Made by a program: the position numbers and the translations under genes
Notes under the pieces: model-generated
What the model was told of the DNA's origin: nothing
The model's database searches: none
Seen by the model: only the letters and a program-made list of their open reading frames with translations
Part shown: positions 6,765-15,967 of the stretch, piece after piece
How positions within the stretch are numbered: the first letter of the stretch is position 1
How the letters are laid out: each line of letters opens with the position of its first letter
Virus record (IMG/VR): IMGVR_UViG_3300027749_002876
Span: 1-64,000 of that record
Origin: a virus
Direction: 5' to 3' (one strand)
Length of the DNA stretch: 64,000 bases

Positions 6765-8807
6765 ATGAACTTAAAAGAGCTTGATTCCTTCAAAATATCT
6801 GACGCCGTCACTTTCCATGACAAGCTTAACCCTGCGTTGTGGGCAGGAAATAAATTGCGTCCTGAAGTTAAAAATCAACTAGAAGAAATAGCAAAAGACT
6901 TCCTAGAAGAAATGGGTATCAATGATTTAGATGTTAGAGATATTACTATCTCTGGGTCTAACGCCGCATACAGTTATACAAAACACAGTGACTTGGATTT
7001 ACATCTCTTAGTCAATATAAATGATTTACCTAATAATGATATATACCGTGAATTCTTTGACGCAAAGAAATCATTATACAACGATAACCATGATATAACT
7101 ATTCATGGGGTTCCCGTAGAGTTATATATACAAGATGCCGCACAACCATCAGTGTCGTTAGGAGAATACAGTTTACAAAATGATAAGTGGTTGCGTATTC
7201 CTACAAAGCGTAGAGCTAACTTTGACCAATCAGCTACAAGATTGAAGTATGAAAAATTACTTGATATTGTAGAAAGAGCATTAGACTCAAAGAACTTAAC
7301 TAAAATTCAAAAAGTATTAAAGAAGATTAAGCAATATCGTCAAGCCGGGTTAGATAAAGGTGGCGAGTTTGGTCCTGAGAATTTAGCATATAAAGCATTG
7401 CGTAGTCAGGGGTATATTACAAAATTACACGATTTAAAAAACAAGTTGCATAGTGAGGTATTAACCATTGAAACTATGTATCAAAACATTGATGAAACCT
7501 TTGACCAACCTTATAAACTTAAATGGGAAAAAAGTGATTACGGTGACGTTGATGCCTATGCTAAAATGGATGATGGTAATTATCTAAGTATTATGTTCAA
7601 CAAAGGATATAATCAAGATAAGGAAGAAGCATGGAGTGTTGAGTTCTACAGAAACAACAGCCAAGAAGTTACCGGTGAGGGTGATGCACAACGTGTATTT
7701 GCTACTGTATTAAGTGCTATTCAAACATTCATTAAAAAATACAAGCCCAACAAAGTAATCTTTTCAGCTAGTAAAGAAGTTGAAGATGGACAAAACTCAG
7801 AAAGTAGAGCAAGACTATATGATAGTTTAGTTCAGCGTTATGCTAGAGCATGGGGATTTAGAGCATTTCGTGCTGATACTGGTAATAAAGTTATATACGA
7901 ATTAAGTAGAAAGCAACCGGTAGATGAAGATATCAGCCGTAGAGGATTCTTAAAAGGCATGGGCGCGGCAGCGGTAACAGGTAGTGCTAAGGCTGGTCAA
8001 TATCAATCTTCTACTGAAATAAGTCCAGAGCAGATGCAACAAATTTGGAAGCCAAGAAAAGGTGAGTTAGAAACTAGATGCTATGCTATATTAAAATCAT
8101 TTGCTAATAGTATAGCCGAATCGCATCCTGATTGGGTTAAAGTAATTCAAAAAATAAAAGTAAACACTACTTTAGGTGATAAAGTATTTCGTCAAGGAAA
8201 TGCCGCAAATTCTAGAGTATCATCTAGGGTAGTAAATGGTAAACCGATAGGTGTACAAGCCGGTCAAATTGGTATCGAAACAACTGTATTTTGGGATGCT
8301 CCTAATGATACGCTTGCTTTTATTTTAGGTCATGAGTGTGGACATATAATTATGAATCATGGGTTTTCTTTGGCATCTGATGCTAGAAATAATGAACAAG
8401 AAGCAGATATTATTGGAGCCTCTCTTGCTAAAAAAATAGGTTATGACAGGGCTAATTTCTTTAATTTTTTATTCAATGCTAAAGCTGAACAATTAAAAAA
8501 TGGATCACCCAATGATCCTCATTTAGAACCAGTTGATAGAGTAAAGTTTTTGAAAAAGAATGCTGATTTTGAATTATCACATAACACTATACAATATATT
8601 GATTCACTTGCTCAACAACTAAAGCAAGGCTTAGCAGAAGCAAGTGGCTATATCCCTAGTGAAAAAGAAAAAAACGATCCACGTTTTAAGACAGCATTAA
8701 CAGTAGATGTAGGACCATATAGCATCAAAAAGAACGCAAAAGCATTTAGCTGGCTTACATCAAGGGCCGGCATTCCACCAACAGCAAGCCCAAATGGTAA
8801 GGTATGA
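6765..8807 (+). CDS. Multidomain protein: nucleotidyltransferase, acetyltransferase-like module, Tat motif, M48-like metallopeptidase
   Basis: This 681-residue protein joins unrelated parts. Residues 50-230 are a pol-beta-like nucleotidyltransferase (GSN...SDLDLHLLV). About 245-378 is a module also present in the minus-strand gene at 33875. V-D-E at 386-388 resembles a T4 prohead-protease site and is followed at once by a twin-arginine motif SRRGFLK (391-397) and an Ala-rich h-region. Then comes an M48-like zinc peptidase with HECGH at 523-527 and ExxAD at 544-548. The tail after L-A-E/A (DPRFKTALTVDV) looks like a recurring phage module. I chose the ATG at 6765 over an upstream TTG. Cleavage at E388 would free a peptidase with its own Tat signal; this is inferred. 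Confidence 0.82.
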   Translation: MNLKELDSFKISDAVTFHDKLNPALWAGNKLRPEVKNQLEEIAKDFLEEMGINDLDVRDITISGSNAAYSYTKHSDLDLHLLVNINDLPNNDIYREFFDAKKSLYNDNHDITIHGVPVELYIQDAAQPSVSLGEYSLQNDKWLRIPTKRRANFDQSATRLKYEKLLDIVERALDSKNLTKIQKVLKKIKQYRQAGLDKGGEFGPENLAYKALRSQGYITKLHDLKNKLHSEVLTIETMYQNIDETFDQPYKLKWEKSDYGDVDAYAKMDDGNYLSIMFNKGYNQDKEEAWSVEFYRNNSQEVTGEGDAQRVFATVLSAIQTFIKKYKPNKVIFSASKEVEDGQNSESRARLYDSLVQRYARAWGFRAFRADTGNKVIYELSRKQPVDEDISRRGFLKGMGAAAVTGSAKAGQYQSSTEISPEQMQQIWKPRKGELETRCYAILKSFANSIAESHPDWVKVIQKIKVNTTLGDKVFRQGNAANSRVSSRVVNGKPIGVQAGQIGIETTVFWDAPNDTLAFILGHECGHIIMNHGFSLASDARNNEQEADIIGASLAKKIGYDRANFFNFLFNAKAEQLKNGSPNDPHLEPVDRVKFLKKNADFELSHNTIQYIDSLAQQLKQGLAEASGYIPSEKEKNDPRFKTALTVDVGPYSIKKNAKAFSWLTSRAGIPPTASPNGKV

Positions 8808-10006
8808 ACGATACTATTTGTAAATATGTATTCAATAGTATCACCATATCAAACAGCGGAACAGTAGACCCTTGTTGTGCACCAAATGGCCCGCATACTA
8901 AAGTATACCATGATAAAATAAAAAATCCTTTAGTTATACATGATGACTTTAATGAGGTATTGAACAACACCCAAATAGTTAATCTTAGAAAATCAATGGT
9001 TGCCGGAGAAAAAAATTCACTATGCGATACATGTTGGCAGAGTGAAAGAATTAATGGTGAGAGTGAGAGAACTTTAGGAAATACAAATTTACGAAATTCT
9101 GATGTATATAACAAAATAATTGATTTTTCAAATATATTTCATATTAACTTATTTTTAGGAAATAAATGTAATTTAGCATGTAGAATGTGTAGTCCTTGGT
9201 GCAGTTCATTAATAGCAAAACAAACTGACATTATTTACCAACGACCACCTACACCAATTATTCAATTTAATGATGATACTCAACAAAGAATCATTGAATT
9301 TATAGACAATAGTGAAAACTTAGAAAAAATTCATATGTATGGTGGTGAACCATTAATAAATGATTTCTATGATTTAATTTGCTCACATTTAATAGCTAAT
9401 GGAAGAGCCTCAAAAATCACATTGGATCTTTCAACTAATCTGCAAGTTGATTTAGAAAGAAAAAATGAATTACATCGTCACTTTAAGAATGTACACATTG
9501 CAGTAAGTGTAGACGGTGAGGGGGATACATATGAGTACATCAGATGGCCCGGTAATTGGAATAAAATACAAAATAACTTAAAAATATTAAGTAATACTAG
9601 GAACGATTTCCATGTCTCATCAGTAGTACAAAATTTAAATATTGATAATCTGTCAAATTTGATGGTATATTTAAGCACCATTGAAAATTTTAAATATCAA
9701 AATAGTACATACCGCAAAGTAACTAGTCACACCAATATAAATGATATTAAAATTATACCAACATGGGTTATAGAGCGTGAAATAGATCGTTTAAAAGCAT
9801 TAAATCAAAACATGAATTATACTATACATGCTTTAGTTAAGATGCTAGAAGCCGAAGTTGAACCATCACGTAACTTAGCATACGAAGAAGTTGCTACTTT
9901 CTTCAAACAACAGAAAGATTGGGATTCTCTTAGAAATCAAAATCTTTTTAAAACAAAGCCTCATTTTTTAGAGTTGGCCAAGCAATTTAACATCGAACCC
10001 TGGTAA
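8804..10006 (+). CDS. Radical SAM protein, twitch/SPASM-like type
   Basis: The Cx3Cx2C motif CNLACRMC (Cys122, 126, 129) binds the 4Fe-4S cluster that cleaves S-adenosylmethionine, and MYGGEP follows about 50 residues later. An N-terminal Cys set (DPCC near 24, CDTC near 72) suggests an auxiliary SPASM-like cluster placed ahead of the core. Such enzymes often modify peptides. The ATGA overlap with the upstream polyprotein-like gene suggests co-expression, and that neighbour could be a substrate. A second member lies at 44071. The family is firm, the substrate unknown. Confidence 0.85.
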   Translation: MNDTICKYVFNSITISNSGTVDPCCAPNGPHTKVYHDKIKNPLVIHDDFNEVLNNTQIVNLRKSMVAGEKNSLCDTCWQSERINGESERTLGNTNLRNSDVYNKIIDFSNIFHINLFLGNKCNLACRMCSPWCSSLIAKQTDIIYQRPPTPIIQFNDDTQQRIIEFIDNSENLEKIHMYGGEPLINDFYDLICSHLIANGRASKITLDLSTNLQVDLERKNELHRHFKNVHIAVSVDGEGDTYEYIRWPGNWNKIQNNLKILSNTRNDFHVSSVVQNLNIDNLSNLMVYLSTIENFKYQNSTYRKVTSHTNINDIKIIPTWVIEREIDRLKALNQNMNYTIHALVKMLEAEVEPSRNLAYEEVATFFKQQKDWDSLRNQNLFKTKPHFLELAKQFNIEPW

Positions 10007-10027
10007 GTTCTAATTGATATGGTATTT

Positions 10028-10035
10028 GATAAATA
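10028..10035 (+). promoter_or_regulatory. T4-like late promoter GATAAATA
   Basis: GATAAATACT lies 22 bases before the ATG at 10058. It falls inside the longest open frame (which opens at 10019), which argues for the later start. Confidence 0.6.
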
Positions 10036-10057
10036 CTACATAACTTTGGAATTCGCT

Positions 10058-10855
10058 ATGAAAATCAATCAAATCGTACAAGAAACTACTACATCGGGAT
10101 CCGTTGCCCCAGTAGAGCATAGTTTTGTCAAAATGCAAACTCGCAGTCCTAGTGTCTATGGAAATACAAAAGCAGGATCACTATTCAAAGGTAAAAAGAC
10201 TAGTAAGCCTTTTGCTAACAGCATCAATGAGGGAGCAATGAACCAACTTTCAATGGACTTGAAAGGTGGAGTTGATGGATTATCTGACGAAGAATTTCAA
10301 AAGAAATATAAGATGACTAAGCAAGAAGCTCGCAAAGAGTTGACCGCTAATAGAAAAGACAACAAGAAGCCTGAAAAAGTTAACGAAGCTGACTTACAAG
10401 AAGATGATATCATAGTAGTTCCTGGTTATGGCCGCACGAGAAAAACTGGATTTACAAAGCATGGTCAAAGTCGTGTTGACCATGAAGTTGAAATGGCACG
10501 TAGTGATGTACTAGCTACAATGAAGAATGCCAGAGTAATCTACGAACTATTAAAAAATAAGTCAGAAGAAGAAGGATTAGAAGGCTGGGTACAAGAAAAA
10601 CTTATCAAAGCAAACGATTATCTAAACGCAGTAAAAGAATACTACGATGAAAAATTAATGCAACGAGAAGGCAAGATTGACTTTGCTAAAAAGATACAAA
10701 AAAACGTAGACAAGAGTAACAAGGCAGTAGTAAAGACTAGTAAAGAAGTTGGCTCAAGAGTTGCTGATATTGGTGCAGGTGGCAAAGAATATAATGTCAA
10801 AACTGACAAAGCATGGGATGATGCACACAAAGCTAAAGAAAGTAAAACAAAATGA
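10058..10855 (+). CDS. Putative internal head protein, 265 aa
   Basis: From the ATG at 10058 the protein begins MKINQIVQE/T, resembling the T4 capsid-targeting peptide MKTYQEFIAE/A; a further I-N-E/G occurs at SINEGAMNQ. The body is Lys/Glu-rich and helical (residues 130-240), with no enzyme motif. The upstream ATG at 10019 would place the late promoter inside the gene and is rejected. The gene overlaps the 1220-residue modular protein by ATGA. Packaging in the head is inferred from the N-terminus and charge. Confidence 0.65.
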   Translation: MKINQIVQETTTSGSVAPVEHSFVKMQTRSPSVYGNTKAGSLFKGKKTSKPFANSINEGAMNQLSMDLKGGVDGLSDEEFQKKYKMTKQEARKELTANRKDNKKPEKVNEADLQEDDIIVVPGYGRTRKTGFTKHGQSRVDHEVEMARSDVLATMKNARVIYELLKNKSEEEGLEGWVQEKLIKANDYLNAVKEYYDEKLMQREGKIDFAKKIQKNVDKSNKAVVKTSKEVGSRVADIGAGGKEYNVKTDKAWDDAHKAKESKTK

Positions 10856-13800
10856 GTAGCATTTTAAAAGGTTTACAACTAAACGAATTATCTAATAAAA
10901 AATTAGGTGACTACAAAACAGCCGCAGGTGCTGATGCTACTGCCGCTGATAAAGAAGGTAACTATAAGCGTGGCGACAAGCGTATGAGTGGTATTATCAA
11001 AGCAACTAAGAAACAGTTTGCTAATGATGAAAGAAAAAAAGATGTGACAGAAACAGGCATTCCATTTCGTGGAGTGGGCGGCGCATTCAATCGCGGTGAT
11101 GATGAGCGACATGATTTAGATGTACCAAAACAAGTAAGACCTCAAGTTTGGGGCTTAAAGATCAATGGCAAAGTATGGAGCAAAGGTGGAAAATCAGTTA
11201 CATTCAATAGTAAAGACGCTGCCTTGAATATAAGAAATTCTATATTAAAGAATCGTCCTGATTTAGAAATTGGTTTAATAACTAAGGGCGGACAACAAGG
11301 TATGGCGGAAGCCACTGGTGATAAACCTTTTGACAATATGATGAAGAACATATCAAAAGGTACTAATAAACAAAAAACCTTAGACCGCAAGGAACAGCAA
11401 AAACAAACTCAACAACGAGCACGTGATGCTTTTGACAATATGTTTGGTGGTGGCAATCCTGCAGACAAATTAAAAATTAGAGAGCAAGGTGTGGCGGAAG
11501 GCTCAACTAACAGTAAATCAATAATTACTGAAACACGCACATACAAGTTATGGGAAAGTGCTGGTAAGAAGTTATATGAAGCACAACTAACAGCCGATCA
11601 AATTAATCAAATTTTTCAACAAGTAGAACAGGGTGCAACAGCGGCTGGCGGTAATCGCACTATGCTTGGCAGAGGCAAAGATGCTACTGCCGCTATAAGT
11701 AAAGCCTGGGAAGAGTTAAAAACTAAAGTACAAAATTCAGGACCTATTAAAGGTGTTGACGCTATGTATGACAAGGCTGCTGAACAATTAAAACAAGCAA
11801 CTGGTGGCGATCAAGGTGTCATGCAGTATGTTCAGAAGTATCGTGATTTTGCTAAAAAACATCCAATTGCACAGAGTTTAATTTATTCAGCATTGATTGC
11901 GGCTGCTGGTATTTCAGGTGCAGGTATTGGTGGTGCAGCCGCATTAGGTCTATTCAAACTAGTAGACAAACTATTGCAAGGCGAAAAGTTCAGTAGTGCC
12001 GCATACGCCGGTGCTAAAACTGGTGGCATGGCTTATGCCGCTGGCCAGATTGGTCAAGCGTTAAAAGGTACGCCTCAACAAGAATTACCCGGAGCACAAG
12101 GAGCACCTGGTCAATCTGAACTAGATCAAATCTATATGAATCGTGCTCAAGGGATGCAAGGCTCGGGTTATACGCAAACTGCAACTGGTCAAACAGGTGA
12201 CTTTGGACAACCAACATATAATATTATACCAGATGGTGGTGGTAGTTCGTATGACCAAGCATTCAAACAAGGTCTTGCAAAGTTTGCTGTCAACCCTAGT
12301 AACCCAAGCGCAAACGATATAATGCGAGCCAAAGACTATGCAGGAAAAGTAGCTTCTGGTATGCTTAAGCCTGTTAAGGAATCAGTAGAACTAACTGAAA
12401 GTCAAATCTTCTTACTGATCGGTAAGATAGTTGAACGTCACCGCAAACTTGATGAAGGGATCATGGACACCATCAAAGGCGCCGCAGGTAAGGCAGTTGA
12501 CTGGGCCAAGACCAAAGGCACTAACTTAACAACTAAAGTTACTGCTGACAAACTATTACAAGCATGGAAGAAAGCAGGTAGCCCAACTGACAGCTTAGAC
12601 ATTGCTAGTATTGTTCAACGAGCTGGCGTGCCAACAGCTACTATTAAACAAGTGTTTACTAACATGAAAATACCAGTGCCAGGTCAACCAGCAGTGGCAG
12701 CAACACCAGGTCAACCAGCAGTGGCAGCAACACCAGGTGCTAAACCAGCAGTGGCAGCAACACCAGGTGCTAAACCAGCAGTGGCAGCAACACCAGGTGC
12801 TAAACCAATTCAGACAACTACACCAGCTATAGTATCAGCACCGGCGGCAGCACCTGCAACCAAAATGGCAGTTCCTGCTCAAAAAACAACTATACCTCAA
12901 GTAGCACCTGTGGCTAAAGCGGCCGGAGCTACAGCACCTCAGGGGTTTAATGCTAGTAATGTAATGAAGATGCCTGGTATGGAAAAGTACGCTAAACCAG
13001 CAGTTGCAAAACCTGCGAATTTCAGCGGTGGCCCAACTGGTTACTCTAGTATGAATACTACATTTAAACAACCAGCAGTAAAACCAGCAATGGCAGCAAC
13101 ACCAGGTGCTAAACCAGCAGTGGCAGCAACACCTGTTGCACGTGTAGCAGAGGAATGGAGTCAAAAATACAAAAGCAGTATCAACTGTAGCCACCCCAAA
13201 GGCTTCTCACAAAAAGCTCACTGTGCTGGCAAGAAAAAGCATAATGAAAGTATTGAGATGGAAATGGTCTGTGAGGATTGCGGAATGTGTCAAACACACG
13301 GAGATCATTCACATGACAACTTAGAAGAAGCCTGTTGGAAAGGTTATCACAAAGAGGGTAACAAAAAGATGTTTGGAAAACAATATCCAGACTGTAGAAA
13401 GAATACAAAGGAAGGTGTGGCGAAGGGCCTATCAGAAATGGACAAATCACAAACTCCGCCAGGACGAGACGGTCACGTAAGTCATGGCACATACGGTTCG
13501 AGAGACAAGAAAGATCCAGATTCTGGTAAGAAGCAATACTACGGCAAAATGGAACGCCCTGAAAAAACAACCAAAACGGCATCGGATATTCTTAACAAAG
13601 CATTTAATAAAGGTGTAGCGGAAGAACAACATAGTTGCCCACATTGCGGTGGCGAGATGGTCAGTGAAGAACTAATGAACGAAAAGAAAGATGCTTGCTA
13701 CTACAAAGTCAAGAGCCGTTATAGTGTATGGCCTAGTGCTTACGCTAGTGGTGCATTAGTCAAGTGTCGTAAAAAAGGCGCAAGCAACTGGGGCAACGGC

Positions 13801-14514
13801 GGCAAGAAGAATGAGAGTTCTATTTTAGAAGGTATTGAACAAGCAGATGAAAGTTTACATGATTGGTTCAATAAAGAAAAATGGGTTCGCATGGATACTA
13901 AAGGAAAGATTAAAGGTCCATGTGCAAGAGAACCAGGAGAAGGTAAACCAAAATGTTTGCCACAAGCAAAAGCGCATAGCCTAGGTAAAAAAGGTCGTGC
14001 AAGTGCCGCACAACGCAAACGCAGAGAAGATCCTAATCCAGACCGGCATGGTTCAGCTATAAATGTCAACACAAAGAAAAAATCTAACGAAAATATAGGC
14101 GAGGGTTGGAGAGAAAAACTAGGCGCAGCCGCATTAGCCGGTTCTATGGCATTAGGCGCAGCCGGTGCACATGCTAGAGTTACCCCTGATGGACAAGGTG
14201 GCTTTACCGGTGGATTAAAACCCACAGCAACCGTGACAGCACCAGATAATACTCCATCTGCTACCGCACCTACTGCTTCATCTGACACATCAGATCCTTT
14301 TAAAGGTTTAGTCCGTGCTGATAGTGCCGATAGACAAGCAAAGACTATAACTGTTGACGGAAAAGAGTATGGACTTGTTGAAATATCCCCAACTGATATT
14401 AGACCACGTGGTGGACAACGAATCGTTGTTCCTCAAGCAGTATTAGGAGAACGAGGTATAGGAAACTATACAGGTATTCTAGTAGGTGATAGAGTATTTG
14501 TTATAAGTAAGTAA
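10852..14514 (+). CDS. Giant modular virion polyprotein, 1220 aa
   Basis: The protein is a string of short modules divided by (L/I/V/M)-x-E/(G/A) sites: MAE/A, VAE/G, LYE/A, LDE/G, LEE/A, ILE/G and IGE/G. Visible modules are a beta segment WGLKINGKVWSKGG near 100, a Gly/Ala-rich membrane-active-looking stretch (about 340-400), Pro/Ala repeats (about 610-650), Cys/Lys modules (INCSHPKGFSQKAHC; CWKGYHKEG), a zinc-ribbon-like CPHCGGE, a YYKVKSRYSVWPSAYASG module, and a DUF5872-like basic domain (SLHDWFNKEKWVRMD). After I-G-E1084 comes a Sec-like signal with an AHA site at 1106-1108, then a 112-residue tail. Modules like these recur in phage proteins; packaging and processing are inferred. Confidence 0.8.
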   Translation: MSSILKGLQLNELSNKKLGDYKTAAGADATAADKEGNYKRGDKRMSGIIKATKKQFANDERKKDVTETGIPFRGVGGAFNRGDDERHDLDVPKQVRPQVWGLKINGKVWSKGGKSVTFNSKDAALNIRNSILKNRPDLEIGLITKGGQQGMAEATGDKPFDNMMKNISKGTNKQKTLDRKEQQKQTQQRARDAFDNMFGGGNPADKLKIREQGVAEGSTNSKSIITETRTYKLWESAGKKLYEAQLTADQINQIFQQVEQGATAAGGNRTMLGRGKDATAAISKAWEELKTKVQNSGPIKGVDAMYDKAAEQLKQATGGDQGVMQYVQKYRDFAKKHPIAQSLIYSALIAAAGISGAGIGGAAALGLFKLVDKLLQGEKFSSAAYAGAKTGGMAYAAGQIGQALKGTPQQELPGAQGAPGQSELDQIYMNRAQGMQGSGYTQTATGQTGDFGQPTYNIIPDGGGSSYDQAFKQGLAKFAVNPSNPSANDIMRAKDYAGKVASGMLKPVKESVELTESQIFLLIGKIVERHRKLDEGIMDTIKGAAGKAVDWAKTKGTNLTTKVTADKLLQAWKKAGSPTDSLDIASIVQRAGVPTATIKQVFTNMKIPVPGQPAVAATPGQPAVAATPGAKPAVAATPGAKPAVAATPGAKPIQTTTPAIVSAPAAAPATKMAVPAQKTTIPQVAPVAKAAGATAPQGFNASNVMKMPGMEKYAKPAVAKPANFSGGPTGYSSMNTTFKQPAVKPAMAATPGAKPAVAATPVARVAEEWSQKYKSSINCSHPKGFSQKAHCAGKKKHNESIEMEMVCEDCGMCQTHGDHSHDNLEEACWKGYHKEGNKKMFGKQYPDCRKNTKEGVAKGLSEMDKSQTPPGRDGHVSHGTYGSRDKKDPDSGKKQYYGKMERPEKTTKTASDILNKAFNKGVAEEQHSCPHCGGEMVSEELMNEKKDACYYKVKSRYSVWPSAYASGALVKCRKKGASNWGNGGKKNESSILEGIEQADESLHDWFNKEKWVRMDTKGKIKGPCAREPGEGKPKCLPQAKAHSLGKKGRASAAQRKRREDPNPDRHGSAINVNTKKKSNENIGEGWREKLGAAALAGSMALGAAGAHARVTPDGQGGFTGGLKPTATVTAPDNTPSATAPTASSDTSDPFKGLVRADSADRQAKTITVDGKEYGLVEISPTDIRPRGGQRIVVPQAVLGERGIGNYTGILVGDRVFVISK
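12682..12807 (+). repeat. In-frame tandem repeat coding (GQ/GAK)PAVAATP
   Basis: Two 27-base units are followed by two 30-base units and a 12-base partial copy, nearly identical in sequence. They encode a Pro/Ala linker inside the modular protein. A related copy occurs near 13081-13135. The units are prone to copy-number change by slippage or recombination. Confidence 0.9.
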
Positions 14515-14526
14515 TAAGGAATTTAA

Positions 14527-14967
14527 ATGTTATCGGATAACTTAAAAGTACTTCTAGCAAGTACACAGGCGTTTGCTATTAAAACACAAAACTTTCATTG
14601 GAATGTTGAAGGTAGTAACTTCCCACAATATCACGACTTCTTCAATACATTGTACAAAGACGTAAATGAAACCATTGATCCTATTGCTGAATATGTCAGA
14701 GTACTAGGTGCTTATACTCCCGGTAGCTTAACACGTTATGCTGAACTAAGTATCATTCAAGACCAAACTAAAGTGCCAAGAGCAGAACTCATGTTTATGG
14801 AGTTACTACAAGATTGCGAAACACTGGGGCAACTTGTTGTTGCTATGTTTGATGAAGCAACGACTGAACGTCAACAAGGTATTGCTAACTACATGGCTGA
14901 ATTACAAGACTTGTATGGCAAGAAAGCATGGTTCATTCGTGCAACATTAAAGAGAGAGCGTGAGTAA
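14527..14967 (+). CDS. dps: Dps-like ferritin
   Basis: This 146-residue four-helix ferritin-like protein carries the Dps ferroxidase signature: His24 (FHWNV), His36, Asp51 and Glu55, with the same 12/15/4 spacing as E. coli Dps. Dps dodecamers oxidise Fe(II) using hydrogen peroxide and shield DNA. The N-terminal Lys-rich DNA-binding tail of E. coli Dps is lacking. It sits among late genes, so it could protect phage DNA in the cell or ride in the virion. A superoxide dismutase encoded at 34804 makes an antioxidant theme plausible. Confidence 0.93.
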   Translation: MLSDNLKVLLASTQAFAIKTQNFHWNVEGSNFPQYHDFFNTLYKDVNETIDPIAEYVRVLGAYTPGSLTRYAELSIIQDQTKVPRAELMFMELLQDCETLGQLVVAMFDEATTERQQGIANYMAELQDLYGKKAWFIRATLKRERE

Positions 14968-15158
14968 TGAAGGCAAAGGAAATATATAAGGGTTTCAAAA
15001 CTTATTCTGCTAAGATATTAGTGAAGAACCCTCACTATTCCGTTCATATGGATGCTATCGTAAACGCCAAAGACGTGGCGCAAGCAAGACAACTTATCAA
15101 ACTACAATACAATGTAGATGATGGCAGAATTGGTACTATTAAAGAAATAAAACAATGA
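14967..15158 (+). CDS. Small hypothetical protein, 63 aa
   Basis: The gene overlaps dps (TAATG) and the next gene (ATGA), so it is translationally coupled on both sides. The sequence alternates beta and helix (YSAKILVKNPHYSVHMDAIVNAKDVAQARQLIK), like a small alpha/beta phage protein. The function is not recognised. Confidence 0.7.
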   Translation: MKAKEIYKGFKTYSAKILVKNPHYSVHMDAIVNAKDVAQARQLIKLQYNVDDGRIGTIKEIKQ

Positions 15159-15967
15159 AAAAAATTTTAACAATGATAGTAGCAATACTATCAGCAAATG
15201 CCTTTGCTTGGGAACAACGTCAACCACTACCATTACAACAATGTCAAGTACATAGTCCTTATGGTTTCCCACAAACTATTGATGTAGCACCTATCTGCCG
15301 TCAAGCATACTTAGTAGGCTACGATGCGTCAGCTAAACTACCAAAGTTTGTGACGTATGAGCTATTACCACAAAATGCATTAGGATGTGTAGCAAGAACA
15401 AATGCTTTTGTAGCTGACCAATCAGTACCAAATGGTGCTAGACCAGATGACTATGCTGGTACAGGCTATGACAAGGGACATATGAGTCCAGACGGTGACC
15501 TATCATGGGATACTCAAGTGGAGTTTGAAAGTTTTTTAATGACCAACATGAGTCCACAAGCTGGTTCATTAAATCGTGGAATATGGAAATTACTAGAAAC
15601 TAGTGTACGTGGTTGGGCAGTTCAGCACAATCAAAGTTACATTGTTTATGTAGGTGGAGTATATAATGCACAAGACAAGAAAATCGGCAACGGCGTCGTT
15701 GTTCCTCATGGTTTTTACAAGATTGTTATCAATAATCAAACTAAAGAAATAGCAGGATGGCTATTCCCTCATACTGCCCCTTATCCTAACTTGGGTAATG
15801 ACTTAACTAAGTTTCGTGTTACAGTAGCACAAATTCAGCAACAAGCTGGTGTACAATATGCGTTCCCAAAAAATGCTGTTGAATTGCAACCCGGCAAAGA
15901 GTGGAGTGTGGATTACGGTGCATTAACTAATGCTAAAAGAACTAAATGTAGTAAAAATTTAGAATAA
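15155..15967 (+). CDS. Secreted DNA/RNA non-specific endonuclease (Serratia nuclease family)
   Basis: A Sec signal peptide (residues 1-18, cleavage after AFA) precedes a beta-beta-alpha-metal nuclease domain. The DRGHxxP-type motif appears as YDKGHMSPDGD with catalytic His109, and MTNMSPQ followed by LNRGIW supplies the metal-binding Asn region. These enzymes cut single- and double-stranded DNA and RNA with Mg. Export to the periplasm would keep phage DNA safe while destroying incoming foreign DNA or salvaging nucleotides; this role is inferred. At 270 residues the length is typical. Confidence 0.92.
   Translation: MKKILTMIVAILSANAFAWEQRQPLPLQQCQVHSPYGFPQTIDVAPICRQAYLVGYDASAKLPKFVTYELLPQNALGCVARTNAFVADQSVPNGARPDDYAGTGYDKGHMSPDGDLSWDTQVEFESFLMTNMSPQAGSLNRGIWKLLETSVRGWAVQHNQSYIVYVGGVYNAQDKKIGNGVVVPHGFYKIVINNQTKEIAGWLFPHTAPYPNLGNDLTKFRVTVAQIQQQAGVQYAFPKNAVELQPGKEWSVDYGALTNAKRTKCSKNLE

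Follow-up and report, generated by a model that had tools for sequence, protein, structure and literature searches.

Two window proteins with internal Tat- and Sec-like signals

We analysed the first 64,000 bases (hereafter, the window) of a 524,565-bp record of a T4-like virus (IMG/VR record IMGVR_UViG_3300027749_002876), in which two plus-strand genes encode large proteins with a twin-arginine translocation (Tat)-like or general secretion (Sec)-like signal at an internal position, directly behind a predicted cleavage site of the phage head protease. The first, open reading frame (ORF) 6765 (6765..8807, +), specifies a modular protein of 680 aa. A nucleotidyltransferase-like N-terminal domain (residues 15-230, 6807..7454; phrog_36119, E 1e-42) and a second, DUF6934-like domain (7476..7871; phrog_16075 / phrog_6387) precede the predicted site V-D-E388 (7920..7928), which is followed at once by the Tat-like signal DISRRGFLKGMGAAAVTGSAKA (residues 389-410, 7929..7994; match to profile A1, E 2.8e-15) with a predicted signal-peptidase motif AxA at 408-410. 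The junction reads KQPV-D-E388 / D389-I-S-R392-R393-G-F-L-K-G-M-G-A-A-A-V-T-G-S-A-K-A410-G and leads into an M48 metallopeptidase module (residues 411-625, 7995..8639). The latter matches PF01435 above the cut-off, both within the whole protein (E 1.6e-8) and as a separate module (E 2.6e-10), carries its HECGH motif at about residues 523-527 (8331-8345), and is placed in family M48 by the motifs H106-E107-x-x-H110 and E127-x-x-A-D, invariant across four homologues. A fold search of the PDB and BFVD with an AlphaFold model of the module (pLDDT 70) yielded no significant match. Downstream, the module is bounded by a second site (KQGLAE625 / ASGYIPSEKEKND), behind which lies a C-terminal module (ASGYIPSEKEKNDPRF..., 8640..8804) common to dozens of phages, where it also stands behind similar sites. 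Three large homologues of ORF 6765 (L480, L482 and L489) measure 1.5 kaa each.

The second protein, encoded by ORF 10852 (10852..14514, +), has 1220 aa and resembles a polyprotein, with more than 20 [VILM]-x-E triplets, QGMAE153 and QGVAE216 among them. It opens with a targeting-like peptide, MSSILKGLQLNE12 (10852..10887), and a similar start (MSSILKGL..E) recurs in several other signal-bearing polyproteins. A DUF5872 module (residues 952-1020, 13705..13911; PF19197 E 0.004, which is below the cut-off; phrog_727 E 1e-38 over the ORF) carries no signal. Further towards the C terminus, the predicted head-protease site I-G-E1084 (14095..14103), with an equivalent triplet at the matching place in homologues, precedes the Sec-like signal GWREKLGAAALAGSMALGAAGAHA (residues 1085-1108, 14104..14175). 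The junction, N-I-G-E1084 / G1085-WREKLGAAALAGSMALGAAG-A1106-H-A1108 / R1109, is followed by a 112-residue passenger (14176..14511), in which a conserved small beta-rich domain occupies 14302-14511; the model of this domain (pLDDT 86) found no significant match in a fold search of the PDB and BFVD. A paralogue of the Sec-like signal is encoded in the same genome at about 176 kb (VDE / GWKQKLGAAALTG). The 945-aa polyprotein with this junction and an HNH-like ORF lie in a region (172.5-178.5 kb) that is repeated in the last kilobases of the record (519-524.6 kb), which reflects either a genuine duplication or an error of assembly.

Both junctions lie exactly where the first-pass annotation, which took them for export signals to be uncovered by cutting in the head, had located them. 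Together with the comparisons described below, this layout suggests that giant freshwater phages place internal export signals just behind head-protease-type sites, whereby cutting in the head would arm proteins for the envelope of the next host.

Predicted cleavage sites precede signals in diverse viral proteins

IMG/VR was scanned with a degenerate DNA pattern for RRGFLKGx[GA]A that is blind to any upstream site, and a site was scored when [VILMA]-x-E (hereafter psi-x-E) ended 2-4 residues ahead of RR. Such a site was present in 48 of 62 distinct viral occurrences, the distance to RR being 2 residues in 30, 3 residues in 9 and 4 residues in 9. By comparison, the same pattern in bacterial genomes has a site in 3 of 76 cellular Tat proteins (Fisher p about 1e-20), and random positions in the same viral proteins have one at the allowed offsets in 8.9% (binomial p about 4e-38, uncorrected for relatedness). 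The former comparison rules out an ordinary feature of the Tat n-region and the latter a chance motif, even though, given a background of about 9%, one site-signal instance alone would be weak evidence. In 42 of the 48 site-bearing occurrences, the open frame extends at least 40 residues upstream, at odds with the N-terminal position characteristic of Tat signals, which would be attained only after the predicted cut. The 76 residues upstream of the signal form 38 unrelated groups among 41 cases, and the site-signal unit therefore recurs in different proteins; when the DNA was clustered at 70% identity, the site was still found in 32 of 46 clusters. Conservation by DNA descent alone accounts for part of the pattern, as seen in the codons, but the divergent M48 and GH19 families retain the arrangement (see below).

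The first-pass annotation also stated that export signals are functional at an N terminus alone and that an internal copy is meaningful only when a protease exposes it. The first statement is too strong, as the Tat signal of the Streptomyces Rieske protein is internal (PMC13186574), whereas exposure by a protease stands as the best explanation, although not the only one. Internal RRGFLKG motifs without a psi-x-E site occur in large viral proteins of other lineages (L188, L191, L196, L202, L203 and L221), and a search for Peptidase_S77, the family of the prohead protease, in the contigs of L188, L191, L196, L202 and L221 gave no match. Along with the Rieske precedent, the five site-less cases from the searched contigs would fit internal signals that work uncut. 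That explanation nevertheless leaves unaccounted for both the psi-x-E triplet 2-4 residues before RR in most viral occurrences and the layout of capsid-targeting sequence (CTS), cut and signal, and we give it almost no credence.

Among the M48 homologues, psi-x-E stands 2-3 residues upstream of RR in all 14 distinct Tat-bearing contexts, and it persists there despite drift of the motif itself (RRGFLKG, RRDLLKG, RRDILKG, RRGVLKA, RRAALKA, RRDVLKT). Relatives of the GH19 peptidoglycan hydrolases have VLE, VVE or VDE directly before D-[LI]-S-RR, with the spacing kept in 9 of 9 other GH19 contexts, and one relative bears the Sec-like form instead (LDE / DWKNWVAGGAMALGALGAQG). A profile search for Tat signals in the genome of the window identified a Tat-GH19 protein of 398 aa with the start MRATEFINKE (about 514.8-516.2 kb). 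Its gene adjoins a paralogue of the Sec-signalled DNA/RNA non-specific nuclease gene of the window.

Signals and their passengers

The phage Tat set displays S/T-R-R-x-F-L-K (RRG[FI]L[KR]G in most), an h-region of at least 12 residues and AxA. An [AVS]xA motif is found at the right distance in 49 of 59 distinct cases, comparable to cellular Tat proteins (68 of 76), and K/R is present in the c-region in 49 of 59, and the mean Kyte-Doolittle hydropathy (KD) of the h-region is similar to that of the cellular set (1.30 versus 1.46). Three signals contain a lipobox (VAGC in L168, LSGC in L215 and L185), compared with 5 of 1210 control windows. The Sec-like form, [VLI]-x-E/[GD]W[KR]xKLxAAALAGxMALGAxGAxA, recurs in about 25 contexts, and basic n-regions and AxA-type ends are present in the Sec-like signals. 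In L482, one of the large homologues of ORF 6765, the junction reads LEE / GIRDKLATAALAACVAGSPGC.

The domains recognised between a signal and the next site are M48 (n = 4), LysM+SLT (n = 3), the TonB_2/TolA C-terminus (n = 3) and LysM+GH19 (n = 1), to which the GH19 domain encoded by the genome of the window is to be added; Zeta_toxin and GP88 matches past a further psi-x-E site were left out of this count. Cases first scored as signal-less in the survey comprise L441, with a signal further upstream, L151, with a Tat signal at 869, L086, which is incomplete, and L204/L218, second repeats inside a Tat passenger. Judging by their domains, the recognised passengers are envelope-acting; the signal-less segments of the same proteins contain CTP_transf, GP88, ParB_N, GNAT, amidoligase, DnaJ-Zn, DUF5872, DUF6321 and other DUFs, and no envelope-acting domain was found among them. 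Furthermore, either type of signal, Tat or Sec-like, can stand in front of three passenger families (E 1e-9 to 1e-18). These are the tail domain of ORF 10852, which has Tat in front of it in L201 and L226 (E about 3e-18), the LysM hydrolases (E about 7e-13) and the QDLGNGF family (E about 1e-13). The conserved trait would be export rather than one particular element. Envelope passengers, lipoboxes and swapped signals all point to export and support the interpretation put forward in the first-pass annotation, which had also singled out the site-signal spacing in homologues; this spacing is kept in the M48, GH19 and RRGFLKG sets alike.

The head-processing system and capsid-targeting starts

At 350.7-356.7 kb, the record encodes, in this order, the portal, an acidic core protein, Peptidase_S77, a gp22-like scaffold and gp23 (E 4e-99), the peptidase being a gp21-type prohead protease (E 1.9e-27). 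The T4 protease gp21 cleaves after L/I-x-E (PMC9026906), and in six phages, namely this one and five related ones, the propeptides of the major capsid protein have L-x-E at the expected place (LLAE/SS, LKE/NA, LTE/TA, LAE/SA), as far as can be judged from sequence. Given this gene cluster, the capsid propeptides and the gp21 rule, the head system is by homology of T4 type, and its expected specificity fits the observed sites.

T4 internal proteins enter the head by means of N-terminal targeting peptides of 10-19 residues, which gp21 removes (PMC9026906). In the signal proteins studied here, an N-terminal targeting-like peptide of about 10 residues ending in psi-x-E is found in 21 of 68 by a strict and 35 of 68 by a broad definition, as opposed to 14% and 24% of other ORFs, respectively. 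In short members, a CTS-like start with its predicted cut abuts the signal directly: MRANEFINE/DINRR (continuing, in full, as MRANEFINE / DINRRDLLKG), MRASEFIAE/DLSRR, MRIHEIINE/DISRR, MKINEIITE/GMNRR and MRAREFITE/IGRR. A single cut in these proteins would both free the targeting peptide and expose the signal, which is the cleanest form of the idea. Within the window, a capsid-targeting-like N terminus, MKINQIVQE (10058..10084, +), marks the likely true start within the neighbouring ORF 10019-10855. Also between the two carrier genes lies a gene for a radical SAM/SPASM protein (8804-10006).

Polyprotein-like carriers and their linker

ORF 10852 contains an 18-nt linker, CAAGGTGTGGCGGAAGGC, encoding QGVAEG (11485..11502, +). 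Copies of the linker occur in L133-L234 and L360-L475. One set of loci yielded 155 copies, all in one reading frame between unrelated sequences, and the same was true of at least 142 exact 18-mers recovered in an independent scan. The linker is conserved as DNA, with Val encoded by GTG in 92 of 94 copies (background 20%) and Ala by GCG in 89 of 94 (background 11%). From their sequences, the carriers look like head polyproteins with modules joined by the in-frame linker (QGVAE/G), and the linker appears to double as a protease site and a joint for recombination. A Sec-like signal directly follows only about 3% of the linkers, and export would therefore be the fate of a minority of modules. Among the loci fetched by linker DNA alone, psi-x-E stands just ahead of the n-region in 4 of 4 internal Sec-like segments, with a background of 12%. 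We are somewhat more inclined to believe than to doubt that an entire class of T4-like giant phages pack their heads with linker-joined polyproteins, in which some of the modules open with a hidden signal of the Tat, Sec-like or lipoprotein type, such that one precursor supplies both the cytoplasm and the periplasm of the host. The literature searched contained no description of QGVAEG or of linker polyproteins in phage heads. If these are real, hundreds of unknown cargo modules become readable and can be sorted by destination.

A proposed route from the prohead to the envelope of the next host

The site-signal unit, its spacing and recurrence, the types of passenger and the protease gene can all be read directly from the genomes, and the following sequence of events would connect them. 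In the infected cell, an export signal buried behind a CTS or other domains would leave the protein in the cytoplasm, from where it would enter the prohead. The S77 prohead protease would then cut at psi-x-E, leaving 2-4 residues before the twin-arginine motif or a short basic Sec-like n-region. After ejection into the cytoplasm of the next host, the new N terminus would be read by the host Tat or Sec machinery, and the passenger, be it an M48 peptidase, a peptidoglycan hydrolase, a TonB/TolA-like domain or a lipoprotein, would end up in the periplasm or envelope. The carriers are probably virion-borne effectors with two addresses read in sequence.

Alternatively, cleavage could unmask the signals in the producing cell, where late export would aid lysis or block superinfection. 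Peptidoglycan hydrolases among the passengers would suit such a role, and T4 proheads do lose cleaved core fragments (PMC9026906). However, the short members bear capsid-targeting peptides, and the phage gives ordinary N-terminal signals to proteins exported after expression, as exemplified by the non-specific endonuclease at 15155-15967 of the window (PF01223, E 1e-41; signal MKKILTMIVAILSANAFA). With ordinary signals already in use, hiding them would be needless for export from the producing cell, and we consider this scenario very improbable. The endonuclease gene adjoins a Dps/ferritin-like gene at 14527.

Several observations weigh against delivery to the next host by way of the prohead. 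Of the 15 site-bearing contigs tested, only 5 gave a match to Peptidase_S77, all among the 7 with a length of 260 kb or more (the others are fragments), and ORF 6765 and its homologues have no clear capsid-targeting peptide at the N terminus. The Tat-GH19 protein encoded by the genome of the window reads IAD / DISRRGFALG, with Asp at P1 where its relatives have Glu; since this replacement blocks CTS processing in T4 (PMC9026906), the copy may be uncut or decayed. Isolate records were searched for the cassette, and isolates with virion proteomics were sought as well; none was found. As for the signals, the Pfam TAT_signal profile (PF10518) gives residues 389-406 of the ORF 6765 protein 19.5 bits, under the cut-off of 22.7; this signal has a short h-region, the weakest in the entire phage set (maximal 15-residue KD 0.86; set mean 1.30). 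The Sec-like h-region of the ORF 10852 protein, with a KD of 1.59 (Sec-like core hydrophobicity 1.55), is less hydrophobic than the ordinary N-terminal signals of the same window (2.15-2.55). Four M48 homologues (L490, L492, L493 and L510) have a CTS-like start but no Tat signal. Finally, the cassette DNA is conserved at synonymous sites (shared codons), and many copies are therefore partly related by shuffling rather than independent.

The modest hydrophobicity of the h-regions would be compatible with the Ala/Gly-rich segments being membrane-active parts of ejected proteins, which would help protein or DNA to pass the inner membrane without being read by Tat or Sec. Phage ejection proteins frequently act on membranes, and another long Ala/Gly-rich stretch is found in ORF 10852 near residues 340-400. 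This alternative is, in our judgement, unlikely in view of the near-invariant RR-x-[FIL]-L-K, the AxA and K/R in the c-regions, the lipoboxes, the envelope-acting passengers and the occurrence of one passenger family with either signal type, Tat or Sec-like. The signals might also be relics of envelope proteins that were captured, N-terminal signals included, by recombination at the linker, and now be irrelevant. The strong conservation of linker and cassette as DNA shuffled among unrelated contexts speaks for such an origin, as do the M48 homologues that manage without Tat and the weak h-region in the window. Yet divergence of the DNA and of the other residues (M48, GH19) has left RR, the h-region, AxA and the spacing of 2-4 residues in place, and in the GH19, LysM and tail families the type of signal changes but a signal is retained, which renders the relic scenario improbable.

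If correct, the two-address scheme would describe the first set of virion-delivered proteins with a two-step address, in which a hidden signal permits packaging and the head protease, by uncovering it, permits export. It would answer the general question of how an envelope-acting protein can travel in the head and yet escape secretion by its producer, and giant phages would then be expected to act on the periplasm in the first moments of infection, ahead of gene expression.

Comparison with known systems

As had been anticipated from the window alone, our literature search turned up no prior description of such a system, neither of exported internal head proteins nor of a prohead protease that uncovers Tat or Sec signals; the parts are known, and the arrangement is new as far as the search reached. 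With the T4 proteins IPI, IPII, IPIII and Alt, the phage proteins share an S77 protease, T4-type head genes and cargo that varies between phages, and many short members and starts of the ORF 10852 type also have a short targeting-like peptide ending in psi-x-E. However, the mature T4 internal proteins are cytoplasmic and devoid of export signals, whereas the predicted cut described here leaves a Tat- or Sec-like N terminus, and many of the carriers are long modular proteins. The ejection proteins of phiKZ and SPN3US (processed by gp175 and gp245, respectively) likewise belong to giant phages in which many head proteins are cut after x-x-E, some of them multiply, but there the cuts remove propeptides, and neither export signals behind the sites nor a polyprotein of unrelated modules is reported in the literature searched. 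Conventional secretory proteins of the Tat and Sec pathways, lipoproteins among them, have the same S/T-R-R-x-F-L-K, h-region and AxA or lipobox, and comprise envelope enzymes; the signals of the phage proteins differ in being internal, with an n-region that starts at the predicted phage protease cut. A parallel for the switch itself is provided by Providencia TatA, which is activated when a rhomboid protease removes its N-terminal extension (PMC3712462). There, as proposed for the giant phages, trimming of the N terminus by a protease turns on a function in membrane transport, although in Providencia a component of the translocase is activated, with no virion step, whereas in the giant phages it would be the signal of the cargo.

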